Assembly (NCBI GenBank): GCA_025359865.1
Contig: JANYDH010000068.1
Location: 1-59,140, forward strand
Direction of reading: 5' to 3'
Length of the DNA: 59,140 nt
DNA from: Actinomycetes bacterium
GTDB lineage: Bacteria; Actinomycetota; Acidimicrobiia; Acidimicrobiales; Ilumatobacteraceae
Positions 3,602-20,922 of the stretch are shown piece after piece; the first letter of the stretch is position 1; each line of letters begins with the position of its first letter. The position numbers and the translations under genes are program-made. Below the pieces are notes generated by a model. That model had not been told where the DNA came from. It ran no database searches and was given only the letters and a program-made list of their open reading frames with translations.

Positions 3602-5047
3602 ATGGCTCGTCGCGGCAGCCCTGTCATCGTGCTGGTATCGATGTCCATCACCGTCAGCATGGCGCTCGCTGTGGGGTGGCAATGGGCAGAGAGCAAGACC
3701 AAGTTACCCGCGGCCGAGTCGGCCGTGCTGCAACCAGGCGACACCGATGGCCTGGCACTCACCACCCCGGTGCTTTCGGTGCGGCGCGCCCCTGCTGTGC
3801 TCTCTCGGCGACTCGATGTGACGGCGTTCCAACAGTCACTTCAACCGTTGCTGGCGGGGCTCAACGACACCTCCTGTGTGGCAGTGTCGGTCGATGGGCA
3901 GCTGATCGCCCAGCGCAGCGCGACTCTGCCCGTGATTCCCGCGTCCAACATGAAACTCGTCACGGCTGCAGTCGCCGTCGAGGTCTTGGGCGCCTTCTTC
4001 ATCTACACCACGACGGTCACGGGTGAAATCGGCACCGGCGGGGTGGTCAATGGCGATATCTATCTGGTCGGCGGCGGTGATCCGTTGCTGACCACCGATG
4101 ACTGGTTGGCTGCATCGGGCGAAGCTGAGCCGCCGATCAACACCACGCGCCTCGAAGACCTTGCCGATGCCGTAGTTGCTCGGGGGGTGACACAGATCAC
4201 CGGAAACGTAGTCGGTGATGGCTCTCGCTACGACGACGAGTGGTTCGCTCCGTCTTGGGGCAACGAGGTGAAGGGTTCTGAAGGCGGTCCCTACGACGCG
4301 CTCATGGTCAACGACGTCACCGACAAGCTCGCCGATCCGGCTCTGAACGCAGCGCAAACATTTCTCACATTGCTGCAACAGCGTGGGGTTCGGATCGACG
4401 GCGAGGGGCGCAGCGGGACTGCTCTCGATGCAACAGAACTCGCCTCTGTCAACTCGCACGAGCTTGCCCTGGTCGTGCAAGAGCTTCTTACGACGAGCGA
4501 CAACAACACCGCCGAAATGCTCCTCAAGGAGATCGGCCTCGAATCCAGTGGAGTTGGTAGCCGTGAGGCAGGGAGCAAGGTCGTGCAAACCACGCTGCAA
4601 CAGTGGGATGTGCCGACCAATGGCATTGTCTTGGCGGATGGTTCCGGGCTGTCGAACGACAACCGTCTCACGTGCACGGCCGTTCTGGCTGTGCTTCAGC
4701 ATGGATCCTCCGATGACGTCGTTGGCCAAGGATTGCCGATTGCAGGAGTCAGCGGAACTCTCGCCGATTCGTTTCTCGACTCACCGCTGAAAGGTCGGCT
4801 GATTGCAAAAACCGGCACGCTCGCCAACAGTGCCAATACGACACGCACATCTGATCCGCCCGCTGTCAAGGCGCTGTCGGGCTACGTGGTGGTCGACGGG
4901 GGCGGCACGATCGAGTTCTCACTCATCTTGAACGGCCAGACCGTGACCGACATCGGCGAGTTCGGCAAGGTCTGGTACGAACAGCTCGGGCCTGCGCTCG
5001 CGTCATATCCGGCTACTGCAACGGTCGGAGATCTGTCGCCGCGCTGA
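3602..5047 (+). CDS. dacB: D-alanyl-D-alanine carboxypeptidase/endopeptidase (PBP4, peptidase S13)
   Basis: A class C penicillin-binding protein that trims or cleaves D-Ala peptides of peptidoglycan in the cell envelope. One N-terminal hydrophobic segment (residues about 7-26) acts as signal or anchor. The three active-site motifs are present: S115-N-M-K118 (nucleophile and general base), S299-D300-N301, and K403-T404-G405. The length of 481 residues fits S13 enzymes, and the insertion between the first two motifs is the usual PBP4 accessory domain. The start at 3602 is 5 bp after the ligase stop, consistent with co-transcription. No regulatory site is visible. Confidence 0.9.
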   Translation: MARRGSPVIVLVSMSITVSMALAVGWQWAESKTKLPAAESAVLQPGDTDGLALTTPVLSVRRAPAVLSRRLDVTAFQQSLQPLLAGLNDTSCVAVSVDGQLIAQRSATLPVIPASNMKLVTAAVAVEVLGAFFIYTTTVTGEIGTGGVVNGDIYLVGGGDPLLTTDDWLAASGEAEPPINTTRLEDLADAVVARGVTQITGNVVGDGSRYDDEWFAPSWGNEVKGSEGGPYDALMVNDVTDKLADPALNAAQTFLTLLQQRGVRIDGEGRSGTALDATELASVNSHELALVVQELLTTSDNNTAEMLLKEIGLESSGVGSREAGSKVVQTTLQQWDVPTNGIVLADGSGLSNDNRLTCTAVLAVLQHGSSDDVVGQGLPIAGVSGTLADSFLDSPLKGRLIAKTGTLANSANTTRTSDPPAVKALSGYVVVDGGGTIEFSLILNGQTVTDIGEFGKVWYEQLGPALASYPATATVGDLSPR

Positions 5048-5107: not shown

Positions 5108-5794
5108 GTGGCCGTGATGCCGATGTTTCCTCTGGAGAGTGTGTTGCTGCCCGGGGCGATGTTGCCGTTGCACGTATTCGAATCTCGGTACCGTTCGCTT
5201 GTCGTCGACTGTCTGGCCGCCGAAGAGCACGAGTTCGGTGTCACGATGATTGCGCGCGGGAGCGAGGTCGGCGGTGACGATCGTCGTATGGATGTCGGCA
5301 CCGTGGCTCGAATGATGCAGGTCGGTCAGATGGCCGATGGCCGGTACGCCATGGTCTGTGTCGGTACCCGACGTATCCGGGTCGTCCACTGGTTGCCTGA
5401 CGATCCGTACCCGCTTGCCGATGTCATCGACATGCTCGATGAGATACCGGCCGACGCAGCACAACAGGCCAATGCATGCGTTCGGCTTGCCGAAGTCGGC
5501 GCTCGCGTTCGCCGCGCTGCTGCGCTCGCAAGTGAGCTCGGCGACGCTTCGATCGACATCGACGCGTCGTCCAACCTGAGTGATGATCTGCTGCTCGCCA
5601 GCTACCAACTTGCGGCACTTGCACCACTTGGACCGGCTGATACCTACGACCTGTTATGTACCCCAGGGCCGGGCCAACGACTGGTGCTACTCGCCAACAT
5701 GCTCGACGACATCGAGGCCGTGCTCCAGTTTCGTCTGCTCCACGACTCCACCGTGCTCATCATCGACGAACCCGACGCCCCAGGCGGCTCCTGA
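5108..5794 (+). CDS. LON peptidase substrate-binding domain protein
   Basis: A 228-residue protein that corresponds only to the N-terminal substrate-recognition domain of Lon, with no AAA or protease domain. The opening MPMFPLESVLLPGAMLPLHVFE and the following YRSLVVDCL match the family pattern. The middle carries the β-rich core (VGTVARMMQVGQMADGRYAMVCVGTRRIRV) and the C-terminal half is helical. Stand-alone LON-domain proteins are common in actinobacteria and their role is not firmly known. The gene starts with GTG 5108; ATG 5114 is an in-frame alternative. It is 60 bp downstream of dacB. Confidence 0.85.
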   Translation: MAVMPMFPLESVLLPGAMLPLHVFESRYRSLVVDCLAAEEHEFGVTMIARGSEVGGDDRRMDVGTVARMMQVGQMADGRYAMVCVGTRRIRVVHWLPDDPYPLADVIDMLDEIPADAAQQANACVRLAEVGARVRRAAALASELGDASIDIDASSNLSDDLLLASYQLAALAPLGPADTYDLLCTPGPGQRLVLLANMLDDIEAVLQFRLLHDSTVLIIDEPDAPGGS

Positions 5795-5863: not shown

Positions 5864-6238
5864 ATGGCCGACAAGCAAACGACCGCGCGCGCAACCAATC
5901 CAACTATCGCGAACCCATCCCGCAAGCGGGGTGGCAACTCGGTCGGCGAGGTGGTCGAGTTCGTCAAGGTGTACGTGCGTCAAGAGACACTCGGCCCGCT
6001 GAAGGGTGCCGGACGGTGGCTCGCGTTCGGAGCGGTCGGCGCTCTCGCACTTGCGATTGGTGTGTTGTTTTTCGTGCTTGGGCTGCTCCGAATGGTGCAG
6101 CATGAGTTTGCGCCGACGTTCCATGGGCGCTGGATGAGTTTGCTGCCGTACCTGTTCGCACTCGTGACGTGCATGATCGTCATCGGGTTGGCGGTCAGCC
6201 GGATCAACAAAAAGACGTTGCAGAAAGACTCGGAGTAG
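5864..6238 (+). CDS. Phage-holin-III-like small membrane protein
   Basis: A 124-residue protein with a basic, polar N-terminus (KPQT-rich, residues 1-45) and two hydrophobic segments (about 48-72 and 92-112) ending in a charged tail. This layout matches the 'phage holin family / actinobacteriophage holin III' membrane proteins that are widespread on actinobacterial chromosomes. No other phage gene is nearby, so a chromosomal membrane role is more likely than lysis. ATG 5864 follows an AAAGAGAAAG stretch that can serve as ribosome site. It heads a run of closely spaced genes up to 8654. Confidence 0.65.
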   Translation: MADKQTTARATNPTIANPSRKRGGNSVGEVVEFVKVYVRQETLGPLKGAGRWLAFGAVGALALAIGVLFFVLGLLRMVQHEFAPTFHGRWMSLLPYLFALVTCMIVIGLAVSRINKKTLQKDSE

Positions 6239-6247
6239 GAGCTCGCC

Positions 6248-6454
6248 ATGGCACAGCCACACATCACCCGTAACGATCTCGAGGCAAAGTTCCGCGCCCT
6301 GCAAGGTGATGTTCAGAGCAAGGTCACCGACAAGAAGCAGACGCTGCTCGCTGCGGCATCTGCAGGCGGAGCGCTGCTGCTGATCCTCATCTTTCTCCTC
6401 GGCCGCCGCAGCGGCAAGAAAAAGACCACGCTCGTCGAGATCCGACGGGTCTGA
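6248..6454 (+). CDS. Small single-pass membrane protein, unknown function
   Basis: A 68-residue protein with a charged N-terminal half, one hydrophobic helix (about 34-51, ending LLILIFLLG) and a strongly basic tail beginning RRSGKKK. AGGAG at 6237-6241, overlapping the previous stop, gives a good ribosome site for ATG 6248. The gene is embedded 9 bp after the holin-like gene and 3 bp before the next small gene, so it is almost certainly co-transcribed. I recognise no family. Confidence 0.7.
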   Translation: MAQPHITRNDLEAKFRALQGDVQSKVTDKKQTLLAAASAGGALLLILIFLLGRRSGKKKTTLVEIRRV

Positions 6455-6457
6455 TCC

Positions 6458-6715
6458 ATGGTGCCCCGTGCCAGGTCGTTGTCGCCGCTGGCGATCGTTC
6501 GCCGCAATGCCATCCATAAGGGTCTTTTCGGTGGCAGTCGTGGTTGGATGATCGTCGGTGGTGTCTTGTGGAGTGGTCGGTTCGTGCGCCGCACGCTCGG
6601 CCGACACGAAGAGGTGGTTGCCCTCGAGGTACTGAAGCCGGGACAGTTCGTACGGCTCGAGGCGATCAGCCCGCTTACACGGCGTCAACGCCGCGCTGCG
6701 AAGCGCGCTGTCTAA
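6458..6715 (+). CDS. Small basic protein, unknown function
   Basis: An 85-residue protein, very rich in Arg at both ends (beginning MVPRARSLSPLAIVRR, ending RRQRRAAKRAV), with a short hydrophobic stretch GWMIVGGVLWSGRFVRR at about 28-45 that may touch the membrane. The middle, EEVVALEVLKPGQFVRLEAI, looks β-rich. No family is recognised. It begins 3 bp after the preceding stop and ends 4 bp before the ubiquitin-like gene, which supports a real gene in one operon. Confidence 0.65.
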   Translation: MVPRARSLSPLAIVRRNAIHKGLFGGSRGWMIVGGVLWSGRFVRRTLGRHEEVVALEVLKPGQFVRLEAISPLTRRQRRAAKRAV

Positions 6716-6719
6716 CGCA

Positions 6720-6917
6720 ATGCGGGTTTTACTGCGCAATCCTTCGCGCGAGATCGAGATCGCGGGCCGCCGGCGCGTGCACGCGCTCCTCACCGAACTT
6801 GGGTTGAACCGTGAATCGCATCTCATCATCCGCAACGGCACGCTCGTGCCCGGCGATGGTCTACTCGAAGCCGACGACGTCATCGAGATTCGTCCGGTCA
6901 TTTCGGGCGGGAGTTGA
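6720..6917 (+). CDS. ThiS/MoaD/TtuB-like ubiquitin-fold sulfur-carrier protein with GGS terminus
   Basis: A 65-residue β-grasp protein. MRVLLRNPSREIEI is the first β-hairpin, RRRVHALLTELGLNRES the helix, and HLIIRNGTLVPGDGLLEADDVIEIRPVISGGS carries the last strands, ending in the family's C-terminal Gly-Gly. Such carriers are adenylated by an E1-like enzyme and hold sulfur as thiocarboxylate at the terminal glycine. It is followed by one base and then a TtuA-type tRNA thiolase, so the natural role is sulfur donor for tRNA 2-thiolation, as in Thermus TtuB; this is inference from position and fold. Odd point: one Ser follows the diglycine, so the tail would need trimming before activation. No E1 or JAMM protease gene is present in the window. 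Confidence 0.8.
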   Translation: MRVLLRNPSREIEIAGRRRVHALLTELGLNRESHLIIRNGTLVPGDGLLEADDVIEIRPVISGGS

Positions 6918-6918
6918 G

Positions 6919-7887
6919 ATGCCCGACGTCGGCTCGAAATGTCGGGTGTGCAAGCAACCGGCGATCATCGACCTACCTCGCCACAATGCGAACTTCTGTG
7001 CCGAGCATTTTCTTGAACTGTGTCGCCGTCAAGTTGTCAAGGCAATCGACCAATTCGACATGCTTACCAAGGACGATCGCATTCTGGTCGCCGTTTCAGG
7101 GGGCAAAGACAGCTTGGCCGTGTGGGACATGCTGCTCGAACTCGGCTACCACGCTGACGGTCTGTACATCGGGCTTGGTATCGGCGACTACAGCGACATC
7201 TCGGGTGACTACGCCCGGGCGTTCGCCGCAGCGCGGGGTCTGAAGCTGATCGAGATCAAGCTGCGCGACGAGTACGGCTACGACATTCCTACTGCAGCAC
7301 GAGCAACTCGCCGAGTTCCATGCTCCGCGTGCGGCCTCAGCAAGCGACACCTGTTCGACAAGGCTGCCCTTGACGGTGGCTACACGGTGCTGGTGACCGG
7401 ACACAACCTCGACGATGAGGCTGCGGTGCTGCTCGGCAACACGCTGCGGTGGGAGATTGGCTATCTGGCGCGCCAGCTTCCGGTGCTGCCGGCACGTGAC
7501 GGGCTCCCGAAGAAGGTCAAGCCGCTCGTTCGCCTCACCGAGCGCGAGACCGCCGCGTGGTGTGTGGTGCGCGGAATCGACTATCTCGTCGACGAGTGCC
7601 CGATGGCTGCCGGTAACCGACACCTCGGTCACAAAGAGACCCTCAACGCGATCGAAGCCCAATCACCGGGTTCCAAAGCCGCGTTCTACCTGAACTTCTT
7701 GGAACGAATGGCACCGTTGCTGGCGGCCCACGCCGAGCAGGAGCGCGATGCCCTCCAGACGTGCAACCAATGTGGTGCACCGAGCGGCGGCGAGCTGTGC
7801 GCCTTCTGTCGGCTTGTCGTCACGTCGTCGCAACACGAGCCCGTGCCGGTAGAACTGATCATGCGCGGCGGGAGGAATCGACGATGA
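6919..7887 (+). CDS. ttuA: TtuA/Ncs6-family tRNA 2-thiolation enzyme
   Basis: A 322-residue PP-loop ATPase that would adenylate a tRNA uridine and replace its oxygen with sulfur. An N-terminal zinc finger (C8-x2-C11 ... C27-x2-H30) is followed by the PP-loop S60-GGKD-S65. C135-x2-C138 and C227 fall where TtuA binds its catalytic [4Fe-4S] cluster, and TGHNLDDEA is the second conserved block. A C-terminal zinc ribbon (CNQCGAP ... CAFC) completes the family architecture. ATG 6919 lies one base after the stop of the ubiquitin-like carrier. The end overlaps trmI by 4 bp (ATGA), so the three genes are translationally coupled. The exact tRNA position (wobble U34 or U54) cannot be decided here. Confidence 0.88.
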   Translation: MPDVGSKCRVCKQPAIIDLPRHNANFCAEHFLELCRRQVVKAIDQFDMLTKDDRILVAVSGGKDSLAVWDMLLELGYHADGLYIGLGIGDYSDISGDYARAFAAARGLKLIEIKLRDEYGYDIPTAARATRRVPCSACGLSKRHLFDKAALDGGYTVLVTGHNLDDEAAVLLGNTLRWEIGYLARQLPVLPARDGLPKKVKPLVRLTERETAAWCVVRGIDYLVDECPMAAGNRHLGHKETLNAIEAQSPGSKAAFYLNFLERMAPLLAAHAEQERDALQTCNQCGAPSGGELCAFCRLVVTSSQHEPVPVELIMRGGRNRR

Positions 7888-8654
7888 ACCATCCATTCGC
7901 CTACGGCGAGAAGGTGCTGTTGCTCGATACGAAACAACGCCGGTATCTGATCACGCTGGTCGAGGGTGCCGAATTTCATAGCCACAACGGGTTCTTCGCT
8001 CACGGTGACCTGGTGGGCAATCTGGAAGGTTTCATCGCCCGCAGCACCAAAGGGGCCCTCTACACCGCTCTACGGCCGACACTCGAGGACTTCGTGGTTC
8101 AAATGCCCCGGGGTGCTCAGGTCATCTACCCGAAAGACTTGGCGCCGATTTGCATGCTCGCCGATATCGGCCCTGGCGTGCGCGTGTTCGAGAGCGGCGT
8201 CGGTTCTGGGGCGTTGTCGATGACGATGCTGCGCTGGGGTGCCGAGATCGTGGGCTACGAACTGCGTGAAGACTTCGCCAATCGGGCGAGGACCAATGTT
8301 CGGTCCTTCCTCGGTGAGGCTGCGCTCGACAAGTACAAGGTCGAGTTGCGCGATTGCTATGACGGTATTGATGAGCGCGGGGTCGATCGAGTGGTGCTCG
8401 ATCTTCCCGAACCGTGGAAGGTGGTGCCGCACGCGATGGAGGCACTTCGCCCTGGGGGCATCTTCATTTCGTACTCGCCATCCATCATCCAGGTCTCGCA
8501 GACACGCGACGCCTTGGCGTCAAAGGCGTGGAACAGCACGCGCTCGTTGGAAGTGCTCCATCGAGGCTGGTATGTCGAAGGAGCGGCGGTTCGCCCCGAT
8601 CACCGCATGGTTGCCCATACCGGCTTCTTGACGGTCAGCCGATTTCTCGGCTGA
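7884..8654 (+). CDS. trmI: tRNA (adenine-58-N1)-methyltransferase TrmI
   Basis: A 256-residue SAM-dependent methyltransferase that makes m1A58 in the tRNA T-loop. An N-terminal β-domain (FAYGEKVLLLDTKQRRYLI) is followed by QVIYPKDLAPICMLADIGPG, the SAM motif FESGVGSGALSMTML, the second motif GYELRED, and the catalytic DLPEPW (DxPxPW) signature. Length and motifs match actinobacterial TrmI (Rv2118c type), which in mycobacteria also sits close to the proteasome ATPase gene. ATG 7884 overlaps the ttuA stop; GGAGG at 7870-7875 is the ribosome site. Confidence 0.93.
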   Translation: MNHPFAYGEKVLLLDTKQRRYLITLVEGAEFHSHNGFFAHGDLVGNLEGFIARSTKGALYTALRPTLEDFVVQMPRGAQVIYPKDLAPICMLADIGPGVRVFESGVGSGALSMTMLRWGAEIVGYELREDFANRARTNVRSFLGEAALDKYKVELRDCYDGIDERGVDRVVLDLPEPWKVVPHAMEALRPGGIFISYSPSIIQVSQTRDALASKAWNSTRSLEVLHRGWYVEGAAVRPDHRMVAHTGFLTVSRFLG

Positions 8655-8701: not shown

Positions 8702-8947
8702 CTACGGCTCGATGAAGATGCACTCTCCGGGGCATTCTTCGGCGCTCTCGATCACGCCATCGAGTTGATTGTCAGGGATGTTGGCCATGCCATCGGCACC
8801 CTGTGCGTTGCCCTTGGCGGTCGCATACACGGTCGCGCCTTCGCGCACGTAGGCCAAGCCGTCGTCGAGCAGCGTGAAGACATCCGGAGCGATTTCCTCG
8901 CAGAGGCCGTCGCCGGTGCACAGATCCTGATCGATCCAGACCTTCAT
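8702..8947 (-). CDS. Single-cluster ferredoxin with Asp in place of the second Cys
   Basis: An 81-residue electron-transfer ferredoxin. The cluster-binding pattern is C10-x2-D13-x2-C16 near the N-terminus and C72-P at the C-terminus, followed by C76. The CTGDGLCEEIAPDVF stretch closely resembles the Pyrococcus-type ferredoxin, in which Asp is the fourth ligand and the cluster can switch between [3Fe-4S] and [4Fe-4S]. Compared with 60-65-residue relatives it carries an insertion (residues about 38-58, rich in Ala and Gly). It lies between trmI and arc on the opposite strand. The partner enzyme is not evident; similar ferredoxins serve cytochromes P450. Confidence 0.87.
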   Translation of the reverse strand: MKVWIDQDLCTGDGLCEEIAPDVFTLLDDGLAYVREGATVYATAKGNAQGADGMANIPDNQLDGVIESAEECPGECIFIEP

Positions 8948-9042: not shown

Positions 9043-10755
9043 ATGGCAGACAACGACGACGAGATGCTCGACGTCCTGCGCGCTCAGGCAGTGTTGCTCG
9101 ACCAAGAGATCACTGATCTGCGCCGTAAGCTCGCGGACGCACCAAAACGGATGAGAGCGGTCGAGGAACGACTCCTCGAGACCAAGGGCCAACTATCTAA
9201 CGCGGTATCGCAGAACGAGAAGCTCAGCTACACGCTGCGCGAGGCTCGCGACCACATTGCTACGTTGCGCGACGAGGTCGACAAGCTCAGCCAACCCCCG
9301 TCCGCGTACGGGGTCATCGTCGGCAAGAACACCGATGGGACCGTCGATGTGCTGACGAGTGGGCGCAAGATGCGCGTCGGTCTGCATCCCGACATCGACC
9401 ACGACGCGCTCGAACGTGGCGCCGAGGTGGTGTTGAACGAAAGCTTCAACGTGGTGTCGGCCCGTGAGTCTGAGGTCACCGGCGAGGTGGTGACCATCAA
9501 GGAGCTCATGGAAGACGGCGTCCGCGCGCTCGTGGTTGGACGCGCGGACGAGGAACGCGTCTGCGAGCTGGCCGACAACCTCCGTGGTGTACATCTCCGT
9601 AGCGGCGACTCGATGCGCCTCGACACCCGCAGCAACCTGCTACTCGAGAAGTTGCCGCGGCCCGAGGTAGAAGACCTCCTCCTCGAAGAGGTGCCCGACA
9701 TCTCCTACGCCGACATCGGTGGGCTCGATTCCCAGATCGAAGAGATTGCCGACGCGGTGGAGCTGCCGTTCCTCTACGCCGACCTGTTCGCCGAACATCA
9801 TCTACCGGCACCGAAAGGCATTTTGCTGTACGGGCCACCGGGATGCGGGAAGACCCTGATTGCAAAAGCAGTTGCCAACTCGCTGGCGAAGAAGGTGGCC
9901 GAAAAGACAGGGGGCGAAAAGGGCCGAAGCTACTTCATCAACATCAAAGGTCCGGAACTCCTGAACAAGTACGTCGGCGAGACCGAGCGCCAGATTCGGC
10001 TTGTCTTTCAACGAGCTCGTGAAAAGAGCGAGGAAGGCTGGCCGGTCATCGTGTTCTTCGACGAGATGGACTCGATGTTCCGTATTCGCGGGTCCGGTAT
10101 CTCCTCCGACATGGAATCGACCATCGTGCCTCAACTGCTTGCCGAGATCGACGGTGTCGAAGGGTTGCGCAACGTCATCGTGATCGGTGCCACCAACCGC
10201 GAGGACTTGATCGACCCAGCCATCTTGCGACCAGGTCGCCTCGACGTGAAAATCAAGATCGAGCGCCCCAATGCCAAGGCCGCCCGCCAGATCTTTGCGC
10301 AGTATCTCACCACCGAGATCCCTATCGCCGAAGGCAGCGACATTGCCGCAATGATCGACGAAACGGTCACCGAGATGTACCGCGACGACGAGGCCAACCA
10401 GTTCCTCGAGGTCACCTACCAAAACGGTGACAAGGAGATCTTGTACTACAAGGACTTCTCCTCGGGAGCGATGATCGAGAACATCGTTCGCCGTGCCAAG
10501 AAGCTGGCGATCAAGCGAGTCATCGCTGGAGGTGCCCGAGGGGTGAACACCCAAGACCTGCTCGACTCCATCCGGCAGGAGTACAAAGAGCACGAAGATT
10601 TGCCCAACACGACCAACCCCGACGACTGGGCCAAGATCTCCGGTAAGAAGGGCGAGCGGATCGTGTTCATCCGCACCCTCGTGAAGAGCCGAGAACGAAC
10701 CGATCGCGAGGGTGGCCGTGCCATCGAGCGCGTGGCGACCGGGCAGTACCTGTAG
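9043..10755 (+). CDS. arc: Proteasome-associated AAA+ ATPase (ARC/Mpa)
   Basis: A 570-residue hexameric unfoldase that recognises pupylated proteins and feeds them into the 20S proteasome. The N-terminal coiled coil (residues about 8-85) binds Pup. An OB-fold region (about 86-235) precedes the AAA+ domain, with Walker A GPPGCGKT at about 264-271, Walker [11 protein letters not shown] at about 336-345 and the GATNRED sensor segment. The extreme C-terminus GQYL is the penultimate-Tyr docking tail that opens the proteasome α-ring. In mycobacteria this gene is close to dop-pup-prcBA; here two unrelated genes separate them. Confidence 0.95.
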
Positions 10756-14182: not shown

Positions 14183-15667
14183 ATGGCAATCCCGAAGGTC
14201 TGCGGCATAGAGACCGAGTACGGAATTCTGGTGCGTGGGGCCGACAACAATCCTGTGTCTGCGTCATCGCTGCTCATCAACGCCTACCTGCACACGCACA
14301 TGCGCAAGGTCGGGTGGGACTTTGGTGGTGAGCACCCCGGCAATGACGCCAGGGGCTTCAGTCTGGGCGACGGATTCGCCCCCGACGTCGAACTCCATTT
14401 GGTGAACGCCGTACTGACCAATGGCGCCCGCTACTACGTCGACCACGCACACCCTGAGATCAGCACTCCCGAGTGCCTCGACGCACGGGAGGTGGTGGTG
14501 TGGGATCGGGCCGGCGAGCAGATCGTGCGTGCCAGCATGCACGCCGCCAGGGCCATGCTGCCCGACGACGCCGAGATTCTCTGCCATAAGAACAACTCCG
14601 ACGGTAAGGGCAACAGCTACGGCTGTCACGAGAACTACCTCGTTTCTCGCGACGTGCCGTTCGGTCGCATCGTGTCGCAGATCACCCCTCACTTCGTGAC
14701 TCGCCAGGTTGTCGTAGGGGCAGGCAAAGTCGGCTGTGAACTTCCAGGGATGGACTTCGACGAGGTGCCGTTCCAAATCAGCCAGCGTGCCGACTTCTTC
14801 GAAGAAGAGGTCGGGCTCGAGACCACGATGAAGCGGCCGATCGTCAACACCCGCGACGAACCCCATTGCGACGCAGCGAAGTATCGACGTCTGCACGTGA
14901 TCGTCGGCGATGCCAACATGAGCGAAGTGGCCACGTTCCTGAAGGTTGGCGCAACCGCGATCGTCTTGGCAATGATCGAAGATGACGAGATGGGAGACGA
15001 TTTCGCGCTGGCCAATCCGGTCGCTGCGATCCGCCAGATCAGCCATGATCCGTCGCTGAAACGAACCGTGTTGTTGCGATCTGGTCGGCGCCTCACAGCG
15101 CTCGATTTGCAATGGGGGCTCCTCGAACGGGCACGCAAGTACGAGCGGTCGCGCGGTCTCGTGTCCGTCGGTGAAGCGGTCGGTGCTGAGGTGCTCGACA
15201 GCTGGGAGTCGGTGCTCACCGGGCTCGAAAGCGATCGTGACAGCGTGGCAGACGTCGTCGACTGGGTGGCCAAGCAGCGGGTGATCGAAGGCTTTGCCGA
15301 ACGCCATGGTCTGCGCAGCGCCGACCCACGGCTCAAGGCGGTCGACCTGCAGTATCACGATATGCGCGTCGACAAGTGCCTGGCCGATCGCGTGGGACTA
15401 CGGACCATCGTCGACAACGACGAGGTGACCCACGCGATGACCAACCCACCTACCACGACCCGCGCCTACTTTCGTGGGCGCTGCCTGGCGAAGTGGCCGG
15501 GCAACGTGGTGGCGGCTAACTGGGATTCACTCGTGTTCGATGTGGGTCGGGATCCGCTTCGTCGTGTGCCAATGATGGAACCGCTACGCGGTACAGCAGA
15601 ACATGTGGCTAACTTGATCGACAGCAGCGACACGGCTGCCGAACTGCTGCAACGGCTCGGTGCGTGA
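14183..15667 (+). CDS. dop: Dop: Pup deamidase/depupylase
   Basis: A 494-residue carboxylate-amine-ligase-fold enzyme. It deamidates the C-terminal Gln of Pup to Glu and also removes Pup from conjugates. The N-terminus KVCGIETEYGIL holds the nucleotide/Mg-binding glutamates. The Dop-specific loop is present at about 52-72 (NDARGFSLGDGFAPDVE). D87 in GARYYVDHAHPE aligns with the catalytic Asp of the family. [20 protein letters not shown] and HVIVGDANMSE are further conserved blocks. The adjacent pup ends in Gln, so this activity is needed. It is directly upstream of pup (36 bp). Confidence 0.95.
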   Translation: MAIPKVCGIETEYGILVRGADNNPVSASSLLINAYLHTHMRKVGWDFGGEHPGNDARGFSLGDGFAPDVELHLVNAVLTNGARYYVDHAHPEISTPECLDAREVVVWDRAGEQIVRASMHAARAMLPDDAEILCHKNNSDGKGNSYGCHENYLVSRDVPFGRIVSQITPHFVTRQVVVGAGKVGCELPGMDFDEVPFQISQRADFFEEEVGLETTMKRPIVNTRDEPHCDAAKYRRLHVIVGDANMSEVATFLKVGATAIVLAMIEDDEMGDDFALANPVAAIRQISHDPSLKRTVLLRSGRRLTALDLQWGLLERARKYERSRGLVSVGEAVGAEVLDSWESVLTGLESDRDSVADVVDWVAKQRVIEGFAERHGLRSADPRLKAVDLQYHDMRVDKCLADRVGLRTIVDNDEVTHAMTNPPTTTRAYFRGRCLAKWPGNVVAANWDSLVFDVGRDPLRRVPMMEPLRGTAEHVANLIDSSDTAAELLQRLGA

Positions 15668-19563: not shown

Positions 19564-20922
19564 ATGGAGCGCCGCATCTTCGGGCTCGAGAACGAGTACG
19601 GCGTTACCTGCACGTTGCGCGGGCAGCGTCGCCTGAGTCCCGACGAGGTCGCCCGATATTTGTTCAGGCGTGTTGTCAGCTGGGGACGCAGCAGCAACGT
19701 CTTTCTGCAGAACGGCGCACGGTTGTACCTCGACGTCGGCTCGCACCCCGAGTACGCCACACCCGAATGCGACAGTCTGTACGACCTGGTCGTTCACGAC
19801 CGGGCCGGAGAGCGGATCCTCGAGAGCCTGGTCGAGTCTGCCGAGCAACGACTGCGTGAGGAGGGTATCCGGGGCACCGTCTACCTGTTCAAGAACAACA
19901 CTGATTCGGCTGGCAACAGCTACGGCTGCCACGAGAACTACCTCACCAGACGAAGCGACGACCTCGGCCACTATGCCGAGGTCTTGATCCCGTTCCTCGT
20001 CAGTCGTCAGATCTACACTGGCGCCGGCAAGGTGTTGCAAACGGCTCGGGGGCCGCTCTACTCCATGGCCCAGCGCGCCGAGCACATCTGGGAAGGCGTC
20101 TCAAGCGCCACCACTCGCAGCCGGCCGATCATCAATACGCGTGACGAGCCTCATGCCGACGCCGAGCGCTACCGCAGGTTGCATGTCATCGTCGGCGACT
20201 CCAACATGAGCGAGTACACCACGTTCTTGAAGGTCGGAGCCGTGGCCTGCATGCTCCGGATGCTGGAAGACCCGTCCGTGGTGCTTCGTGACATGACACT
20301 CGAGAACCCGATCAGGGCAATCAGAGATATCAGTCACGACATGACCTGTCGTCGGCGTGTGCGCCTGTCCAATGGTCGCGAAGTCAGTGCCCTCGACATC
20401 CAACGCGAGTACCTCGACCGGGCGCTGCGTTACGCCGACACCAAGGGGTTCCCACCGCTCGAGCAACGGGCGCTCGAGATGTGGGAGCACTGCGTTTCCA
20501 CCATCGAAAACGACCCGCTGAAACTCGATCGCGAAGTCGACTGGGTGATCAAGTACCGGCTCATCGAGGCATACCGGGCACGACATGATCTGCCGCTCGG
20601 CGACGCGCGTGTGCAGCTACTCGACCTGCAGTACCACGACATCAGTCGCTATCGAAGCCCGTTCTACAAACTCCAAGACCGCGGGTTGGTCGAACGTATT
20701 TGTACCGACGCCGATATCGATATCGCGGTCGATCTACCACCGCAGACCACGCGCGCTCGTCTGCGTGGCGAGTTCATCAAGAAGGCCAAGGAACGCAAAC
20801 GTGACTACACCGTCGACTGGGTCCATCTCAAGATCAACGATCAAGCACAACGCACCGTGCTGTGCAAGGACCCCTTCAAGAGCCGCGACGAGCGTGTCGA
20901 GAAACTCATCGCCTCGCTGTGA
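19564..20922 (+). CDS. pafA: PafA: Pup--protein ligase
   Basis: A 452-residue ligase that uses ATP to join the C-terminal Glu of Pup to lysine side chains. It shares the fold of Dop but lacks the Dop loop. The N-terminus [14 protein letters not shown] holds nucleotide-site residues; D57 in [19 protein letters not shown] is the conserved catalytic Asp; [19 protein letters not shown] and [12 protein letters not shown] follow. The C-terminal small domain (about 390-452) contains the Lys/Arg-rich Pup-groove region. ATG 19564 is 9 bp after pxpC. Confidence 0.95.

Follow-up and report, generated by a model that had tools for sequence, protein, structure and literature searches.

The window analyzed here, the 59,140-nucleotide contig JANYDH010000068.1 (assembly GCA_025359865.1) of an actinobacterium of the family Ilumatobacteraceae, encodes a TtuB-type ubiquitin-like sulfur carrier with an additional serine after its Gly-Gly, directly upstream of the gene for the tRNA 2-thiolation enzyme TtuA. 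The comparison with relatives suggests that this TtuB is probably a precursor, which is cut after the Gly-Gly and then used for thiolation of the tRNA T-loop. The ttuB open reading frame (ORF) ends in ...RPVISGGS and is followed, after the stop codon TGA (6915–6917) and a single base, by the ATG of ttuA at 6919. The protein matched Thermus thermophilus TtuB (PDB 5ztb and 5gha; E about 1e-6), and both Pfam families ThiS and SAMP2 were above cut-off. Its predicted fold, with a mean predicted local distance difference test (pLDDT) score of 90.9, had TtuB 5ztb_E as the best PDB match (TM-score 0.86). The protein is thus a TtuB by sequence, Pfam match and predicted β-grasp fold. This confirms an earlier note, made from the DNA letters alone, which had described a 65-residue β-grasp carrier ending in SGGS one base ahead of ttuA and had named the carrier fold as a point on which the claim could fail. 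The free C-terminal Gly-Gly of TtuB is absent as encoded, the end being SGGS, and it would be reached only after the putative cut.

The window TtuA aligned to solved TtuA with an E value of 2e-85. The zinc finger was present, and the PP-loop SGGKDS and the three catalytic cysteines C135, C138 and C227 were found, by counting on this alignment, at the places given in the earlier note. The lysine following the third CxxC, K137 in Thermus (PMC3980101; the papers cited by accession are represented here by excerpts), which bears on a possible conjugation of TtuB to lysines, was also retained. With regard to U54 or U34 as the target, the NCBIfam model of TtuA gave 267 bits, below its cut-off of 450, and the NcsA model gave 103 bits, likewise below cut-off.

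TtuB was compared across 80 loci fetched with TtuA, of which 78 had a readable TtuB, giving 79 with the window; the loci left out were L071, whose contig starts inside ttuA, and L077, where a TtuB match was absent. Eight of the 79 ended in plain Gly-Gly, 66 carried tails of 1–24 extra residues, and five ran on into TtuA. The tails were one residue long in 8 cases, two in 45, three in 4, four in 2 and six to 24 in 7. Tailed TtuBs also occurred in records labelled Bacillota (L074), Chloroflexota (L075) and Rokuibacteriota (L079), respectively. A second set, sharing species with the first, consisted of 178 genomes of the window's class with completeness of ≥90%; among the 75 with TtuB, 56 were tailed (1–64 residues), 19 had plain Gly-Gly and none was fused. 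SGG was invariant in tailed, plain and fused forms, and the residues behind it varied. Since most relatives likewise show SGG with a short tail, chance can be ruled out as the origin of SGG plus an extra residue. The search of close genomes for such tails, proposed in the earlier note, was answered positively in both sets. On a TtuA tree of 78 rows (L040, with a short frame, was dropped, and the class loci lie outside the tree), frequent switching between tail and plain Gly-Gly was rejected. As three changes suffice and all eight plain Gly-Gly rows are confined to one 20-row set, the tail is the common state on this tree. At L049, CTGCGGTGAAGTGCCGGG near the ttuB stop and ttuA start occurs twice close together, after the ttuB Gly-Gly codons (about 4883–5010).

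In a sister class, that of the genome behind L068 and G043 (record title Nitriliruptorales; 66 genomes, 44 with TtuB), TtuB and TtuA were found in one reading frame in 41 of the 44 TtuB genomes. The linker up to the first CxxC measured 4–8 residues in 40 of the fusions and 31 residues in one, and in-frame ATG, GTG or TTG codons were absent from all 41 linkers; hence, full-length TtuA cannot start separately by these codons. Three fusions (L199, L218 and L229) were short, running off contig ends after the PP-loop. The catalytic motifs were retained in the TtuA part of the five fusions that were aligned. A model of one fusion sequence showed two domains that were predicted well, of which the TtuA part matched 5ztb, and the only internal stretch of at least three residues with pLDDT below 50 was 63–65, the Gly-Gly-Ala at the joint.

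The residue at the presumed cut site was restricted. Ala or Ser stood right after Gly-Gly in 94 of 113 distinct tails and at the next position in 25 of 103 (Fisher odds ratio 15), and a paired test for small residues at the first versus the next tail position gave 40 to 5. The 139 distinct TtuBs in these statistics include the five fusions of the 79-member set and exclude the weak second match L196. The 41 fusions had Ala in 37 and Ser in four. Serine at this place was encoded by TCN 20 times and by AGY 6 times; since these are two unrelated codon groups, the amino acid itself is likely to be under constraint. Gly-Gly followed by Ala/Ser looks like a protease site, and the serine of the window obeys this rule and is the same residue that follows the cut in mycobacterial MoaX (PMC4326299). 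Similar to precursor-type carriers of the MoaX type, TtuB has further residues after Gly-Gly as encoded and a constrained residue among them, although the counts are uncorrected for relatedness and the constraint is looser near the window. The earlier note had read the extra serine as a sign of either processing or altered activation; the longer tails, the fusions and the Ala/Ser rule strengthen processing, which is the best reading.

The ttuB product would thus be made as a precursor and a peptidase would cut after the second glycine of the observed site, removing the serine in the window's species, up to 64 residues in the tailed relatives and the whole of TtuA in the fused class. A Mec-type JAMM metallopeptidase would be the most likely cutter. 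The freed glycine would be adenylated and thiocarboxylated by the rhodanese-ThiF enzyme of the genome, presumably its partner. This enzyme is the only strong match to the search for a MoeB-type E1 that the earlier note had proposed; its gene lies at L081 1420–2601 on the minus strand and encodes an N-terminal rhodanese domain (residues 28–116) ahead of ThiF (135–367). In MoeZ, the domain order is the reverse. As in the Thermus pathway, TtuA would pass the sulfur via its Fe-S cluster to a T-loop position that is presumably U54, close to the 1-methyladenosine 58 (m1A58) that the co-encoded TrmI would make. Three other ThiS-family carriers, ending in SGGCA, AVAGG and LSGG, are encoded in the window's genome; the SGGCA protein, a MoaD-like minus-strand ORF of L117 (contig C115), is a second tailed carrier. 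In Thermus, m1A58 made by TrmI speeds TtuA (PMC6418473), and trmI follows ttuA in 64 of the 66 loci having at least 1.2 kb downstream; on these grounds, ttuB-ttuA-trmI reads as a putative T-loop cassette. Possible, though not favored, is the broader proposal that in two actinobacterial classes the carrier must be freed by cutting, that fusion delivers TtuA and carrier in a 1:1 ratio and that an Ala/Ser-preferring peptidase is the on-switch of T-loop thiolation. As part of this proposal, the peptidase may be of a non-JAMM kind in some lineages and the window's genome may lack JAMM. To our knowledge, bacteria of these two classes are not known as thermophiles.

JAMM proteins above cut-off were encoded in 156 of the 178 class genomes, i.e., 71 of 75 with TtuB and 85 of 103 without, and in 59 of the 66 genomes of the fused class (of unstated completeness), including 35 of the 41 with a fusion. 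Among the 80 loci, 50 were checked and 40 had one (plain Gly-Gly 6/8, tailed 29/37, fused 5/5). DRJAMM cleaves MoaD-MoaE (PMC8832034), loss of the Thermus JAMM makes the TtuB conjugates aberrant and roughly halves the thiouridine (PMC3980101), and JAB peptidases have already been suggested to free carriers from fusions (PMC1779556). JAMM is the leading candidate for the cutter, as yet unproven. The JAMM search suggested in the earlier note succeeded in the class at large but gave zero matches in the assembly of the window itself, which is 96.6% complete, and the 20 kb around its murI-rph-rdgB, where the nearest relative keeps JAMM, likewise gave zero JAMM matches. This absence may be an assembly gap, since smpB is missing as well; in 15 of 18 family relatives, it lies no more than 130 bases from the JAMM gene. 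An smpB query that detects the gene in 20 of 23 genomes (weakly in one of the 20) did not find it in the window's assembly (G000) or in the nearest relative (G001). Contrary to a gap, G001 without smpB does have JAMM, adjoining a cysM-like gene and murI (the other flank lies off its contig), and the window's own murI-rph-rdgB stretch is assembled without JAMM. Positions 1–450 of the window form a dispersed intergenic repeat, with stretches of 83–91% identity at L247 11049–11496, which belongs to a different contig of this genome, and shorter copies of 85–86% identity at L081 3453–3628 and L118 (about 1832–1884). The L247 copy lies ∼1.3 kb upstream of murI, on the flank that in the nearest relative carries mec and the cysM-like gene.

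Several observations count against a precursor cut by JAMM. Besides the missing JAMM of the window's assembly and murI region, TtuB processing was deduced here from sequences. JAMM is frequent in class genomes without TtuB, as given above, and six of the 41 fused genomes lack one above cut-off (four with a weak match and two with none). Moreover, it does not go with the tail, as 53 of the 56 tailed genomes and 18 of the 19 plain Gly-Gly genomes encode it, so that prediction of the tail by JAMM presence was rejected. The JAMM genes sit beside cysM-, cysO- or smpB-like genes. The Ala/Ser counts are inflated by shared ancestry, and close to the window the rule relaxes, with F, T and C occurring behind Gly-Gly. 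A further point is that the ttuB stop and ttuA start overlap by four bases in at least 39 of the 66 tailed loci versus one of the eight plain ones; the 39 is a lower bound, as 21 tailed loci were unplaced, some since their match started upstream of the start codon. Because tails go with this overlap, the length of a tail may be no more than a consequence of translational coupling. The tail would then be a by-product, the ttuB stop having shifted into the start of ttuA and the Gly-Gly codons doubling as its ribosome-binding site, and the extra residues would be trimmed by general peptidases or tolerated. GGAGG within the Gly-Gly codons of 21 of 74 unfused loci and the predominance of two-residue tails (45/79) agree with this, and in the window GGCGGGAG within 6906–6917 possibly also reads as a candidate ribosome-binding site for ttuA. 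Coupling can explain the usual two-residue tails, but the overlap leaves unexplained the Ala/Ser after Gly-Gly, the long tails and the fusions without a start codon; plain Gly-Gly with the same overlap exists (L008, G066), and the Thermus pathway activates a free C-terminal glycine (PMC3980101). As an account of the tail, it is considered rather unlikely.

It is improbable that the TtuB domain serves docking or regulation and donates no sulfur, with TtuA using sulfide or the sulfur of another carrier and the tail being harmless. TtuA can work with sulfide in vitro and TtuB is absent from some organisms (PMC7138817, PMC11323500), and two of the three other ThiS-family carriers of the genome end in plain Gly-Gly; however, the retention of SGG in all three forms is difficult to reconcile with a docking role, and TtuB stays with TtuA, being found in 78 of the 80 loci fetched with TtuA (one exception starts inside ttuA), with TtuA in the read stretch of all 75 class loci fetched with TtuB. 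Altered activation, in which the rhodanese-headed E1 accepts residues after Gly-Gly or itself breaks the Gly-Ser bond, draws on the N-terminal rhodanese domain of the single strong ThiF match and is very improbable, as known E1 chemistry adenylates a C-terminal glycine (PMC3980101) and, in the fusions, the enzyme would have to do the same despite about 320 residues following the glycine. A sequencing, frame or annotation error, on which the earlier note had let its claim depend, has nothing in its favor and practically no probability left, and was ruled out by the relatives, the nearest of which ends in GGT, most others being tailed, including the one-contig genomes G053, G143 and G186. Cutting of a TtuB precursor after Gly-Gly remains the reading preferred here.

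Features of the ttuB-ttuA locus and its surroundings in the window
Feature	Position	Strand	Basis or remark
LON substrate-binding-domain protein gene	5108..5794	+	Pfam-type match; conserved upstream neighbor
124-aa membrane protein gene	5864..6238	+	Holin-X (PF07332) via 8/10 aligned relatives
68-aa protein gene, one hydrophobic stretch, conserved VEIRR end	6248..6454	+	no confident family
85-aa conserved protein gene	6458..6715	+	no confident family
ttuB, ubiquitin-like sulfur carrier, 65 aa, end ...VISGGS	6720..6917	+	sequence, Pfam, predicted fold
Gly-Gly codons GGC GGG, extra Ser codon AGT, stop TGA	6906..6917	+	sequence
ttuA, tRNA 2-thiolation enzyme, N-terminal zinc finger, SGGKDS, C135/C138/C227	6919..7887	+	PDB alignment, Pfam
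trmI, tRNA m1A58 methyltransferase, overlaps ttuA stop	7884..8654	+	GCD14, TrmI-like_N
ferredoxin gene between trmI and arc	8702..8947	-	domain match
arc/mpa proteasome ATPase gene, neighbor outside the carrier system	9043..10755	+	TIGR03689

The genes from the LON-domain protein through the three small proteins, ttuB and ttuA to trmI run on one strand, and the Pup genes and the proteasome ATPase gene come after the minus-strand ferredoxin gene. The gene order given in the earlier note therefore holds for trmI after ttuA, but the ATPase is not directly next. In relatives, arc was found downstream in 46 of the 53 loci having at least 3.8 kb of sequence on that side; with the conserved place of trmI, the closeness to the Pup-proteasome looks like an old conserved gene order, and the functional tie to TtuB that the earlier note had hinted at is unsupported, gene closeness being all that speaks for it. 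Mycobacteria have a trmI-mpa neighborhood as well. Two genes of Pup-ligase type, at 14183–15667 (Pfam-confirmed) and 19564–20922 (recognized by eye), have two patches of similar DNA in common, one of 119 bases with 75% identity and one of 33 bases with 97%. The three small upstream ORFs, for which the earlier note gave 6238–6715, have the spans listed in the table. Among 69 loci with at least 2.5 kb upstream, the 124-aa protein was conserved in 56, the 68-aa in 55 and the 85-aa in 30. They had been called unexplained, which still applies to the 68-aa and 85-aa proteins, whose family searches gave zero confident matches, but not to the 124-aa protein, which is Holin-X-like through its aligned relatives; the window's own copy gave zero family matches at E 0.01.

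Among known systems, TtuA/TtuB/TtuC of Thermus thermophilus, which makes m5s2U54, shares the carrier sequence and fold, the TtuA motifs and the ISGG core; Thermus TtuB ends at Gly-Gly (5ztb), whereas the window TtuB has an extra residue and its relatives are tailed or fused to TtuA. TtuB also resembles archaeal SAMP2, of which a structure with JAMM1 exists (5lda), but SAMP2 in 5lda ends at Gly-Gly. Actinobacterial CysO and Mec serve cysteine synthesis, and we know of no tRNA role for them. Mec belongs to the same JAMM family, and in some relatives JAMM lies beside PALP (cysM-like) or ThiS-family genes. Two CysO-like carriers near JAMM end in AGGLA (L088, confirmed as ThiS family) and AGGSGSS (L091), tailed as the TtuB relatives are; hence, tails extend beyond TtuB. 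HcyS/HcyD and QbsE/QbsD, of the methionine and siderophore pathways, are carriers whose residues after Gly-Gly are removed by JAMM.

No description of TtuB tails or of a TtuB-TtuA fusion was found in the titles and abstract beginnings listed by searches of the open-licence literature; the fusions named in the excerpt of PMC1779556 are ThiS-ThiG, MoaD-MoaE and ThiS-sulfite reductase. The loci form a large natural set for exploring the tasks of bacterial JAMM peptidases other than those involving CysO, a possible control of tRNA thiolation by maturation, and the reason why these bacteria retain a T-loop thiolation that has been described for thermophiles. Ubiquitin and SUMO are synthesized in precursor form and cleaved behind Gly-Gly. 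Mycobacterial MoaX (MoaD-MoaE) and the Deinococcus radiodurans MoaD-MoaE with DRJAMM likewise have an internal Gly-Gly before a partner enzyme, but belong to the molybdopterin pathway with another partner. MoaX is cut at Gly82|Ser83 and requires the cut, by a protease that the excerpt of that paper leaves unidentified (PMC4326299). Precursor cutting among bacterial sulfur carriers has thus, according to these excerpts, been demonstrated for MoaD-MoaE fusions; here, where it is deduced, the tail after Gly-Gly appears to be the common state of a tRNA-thiolation carrier across a class, and the fusion is near-universal among the TtuBs of its sister class.

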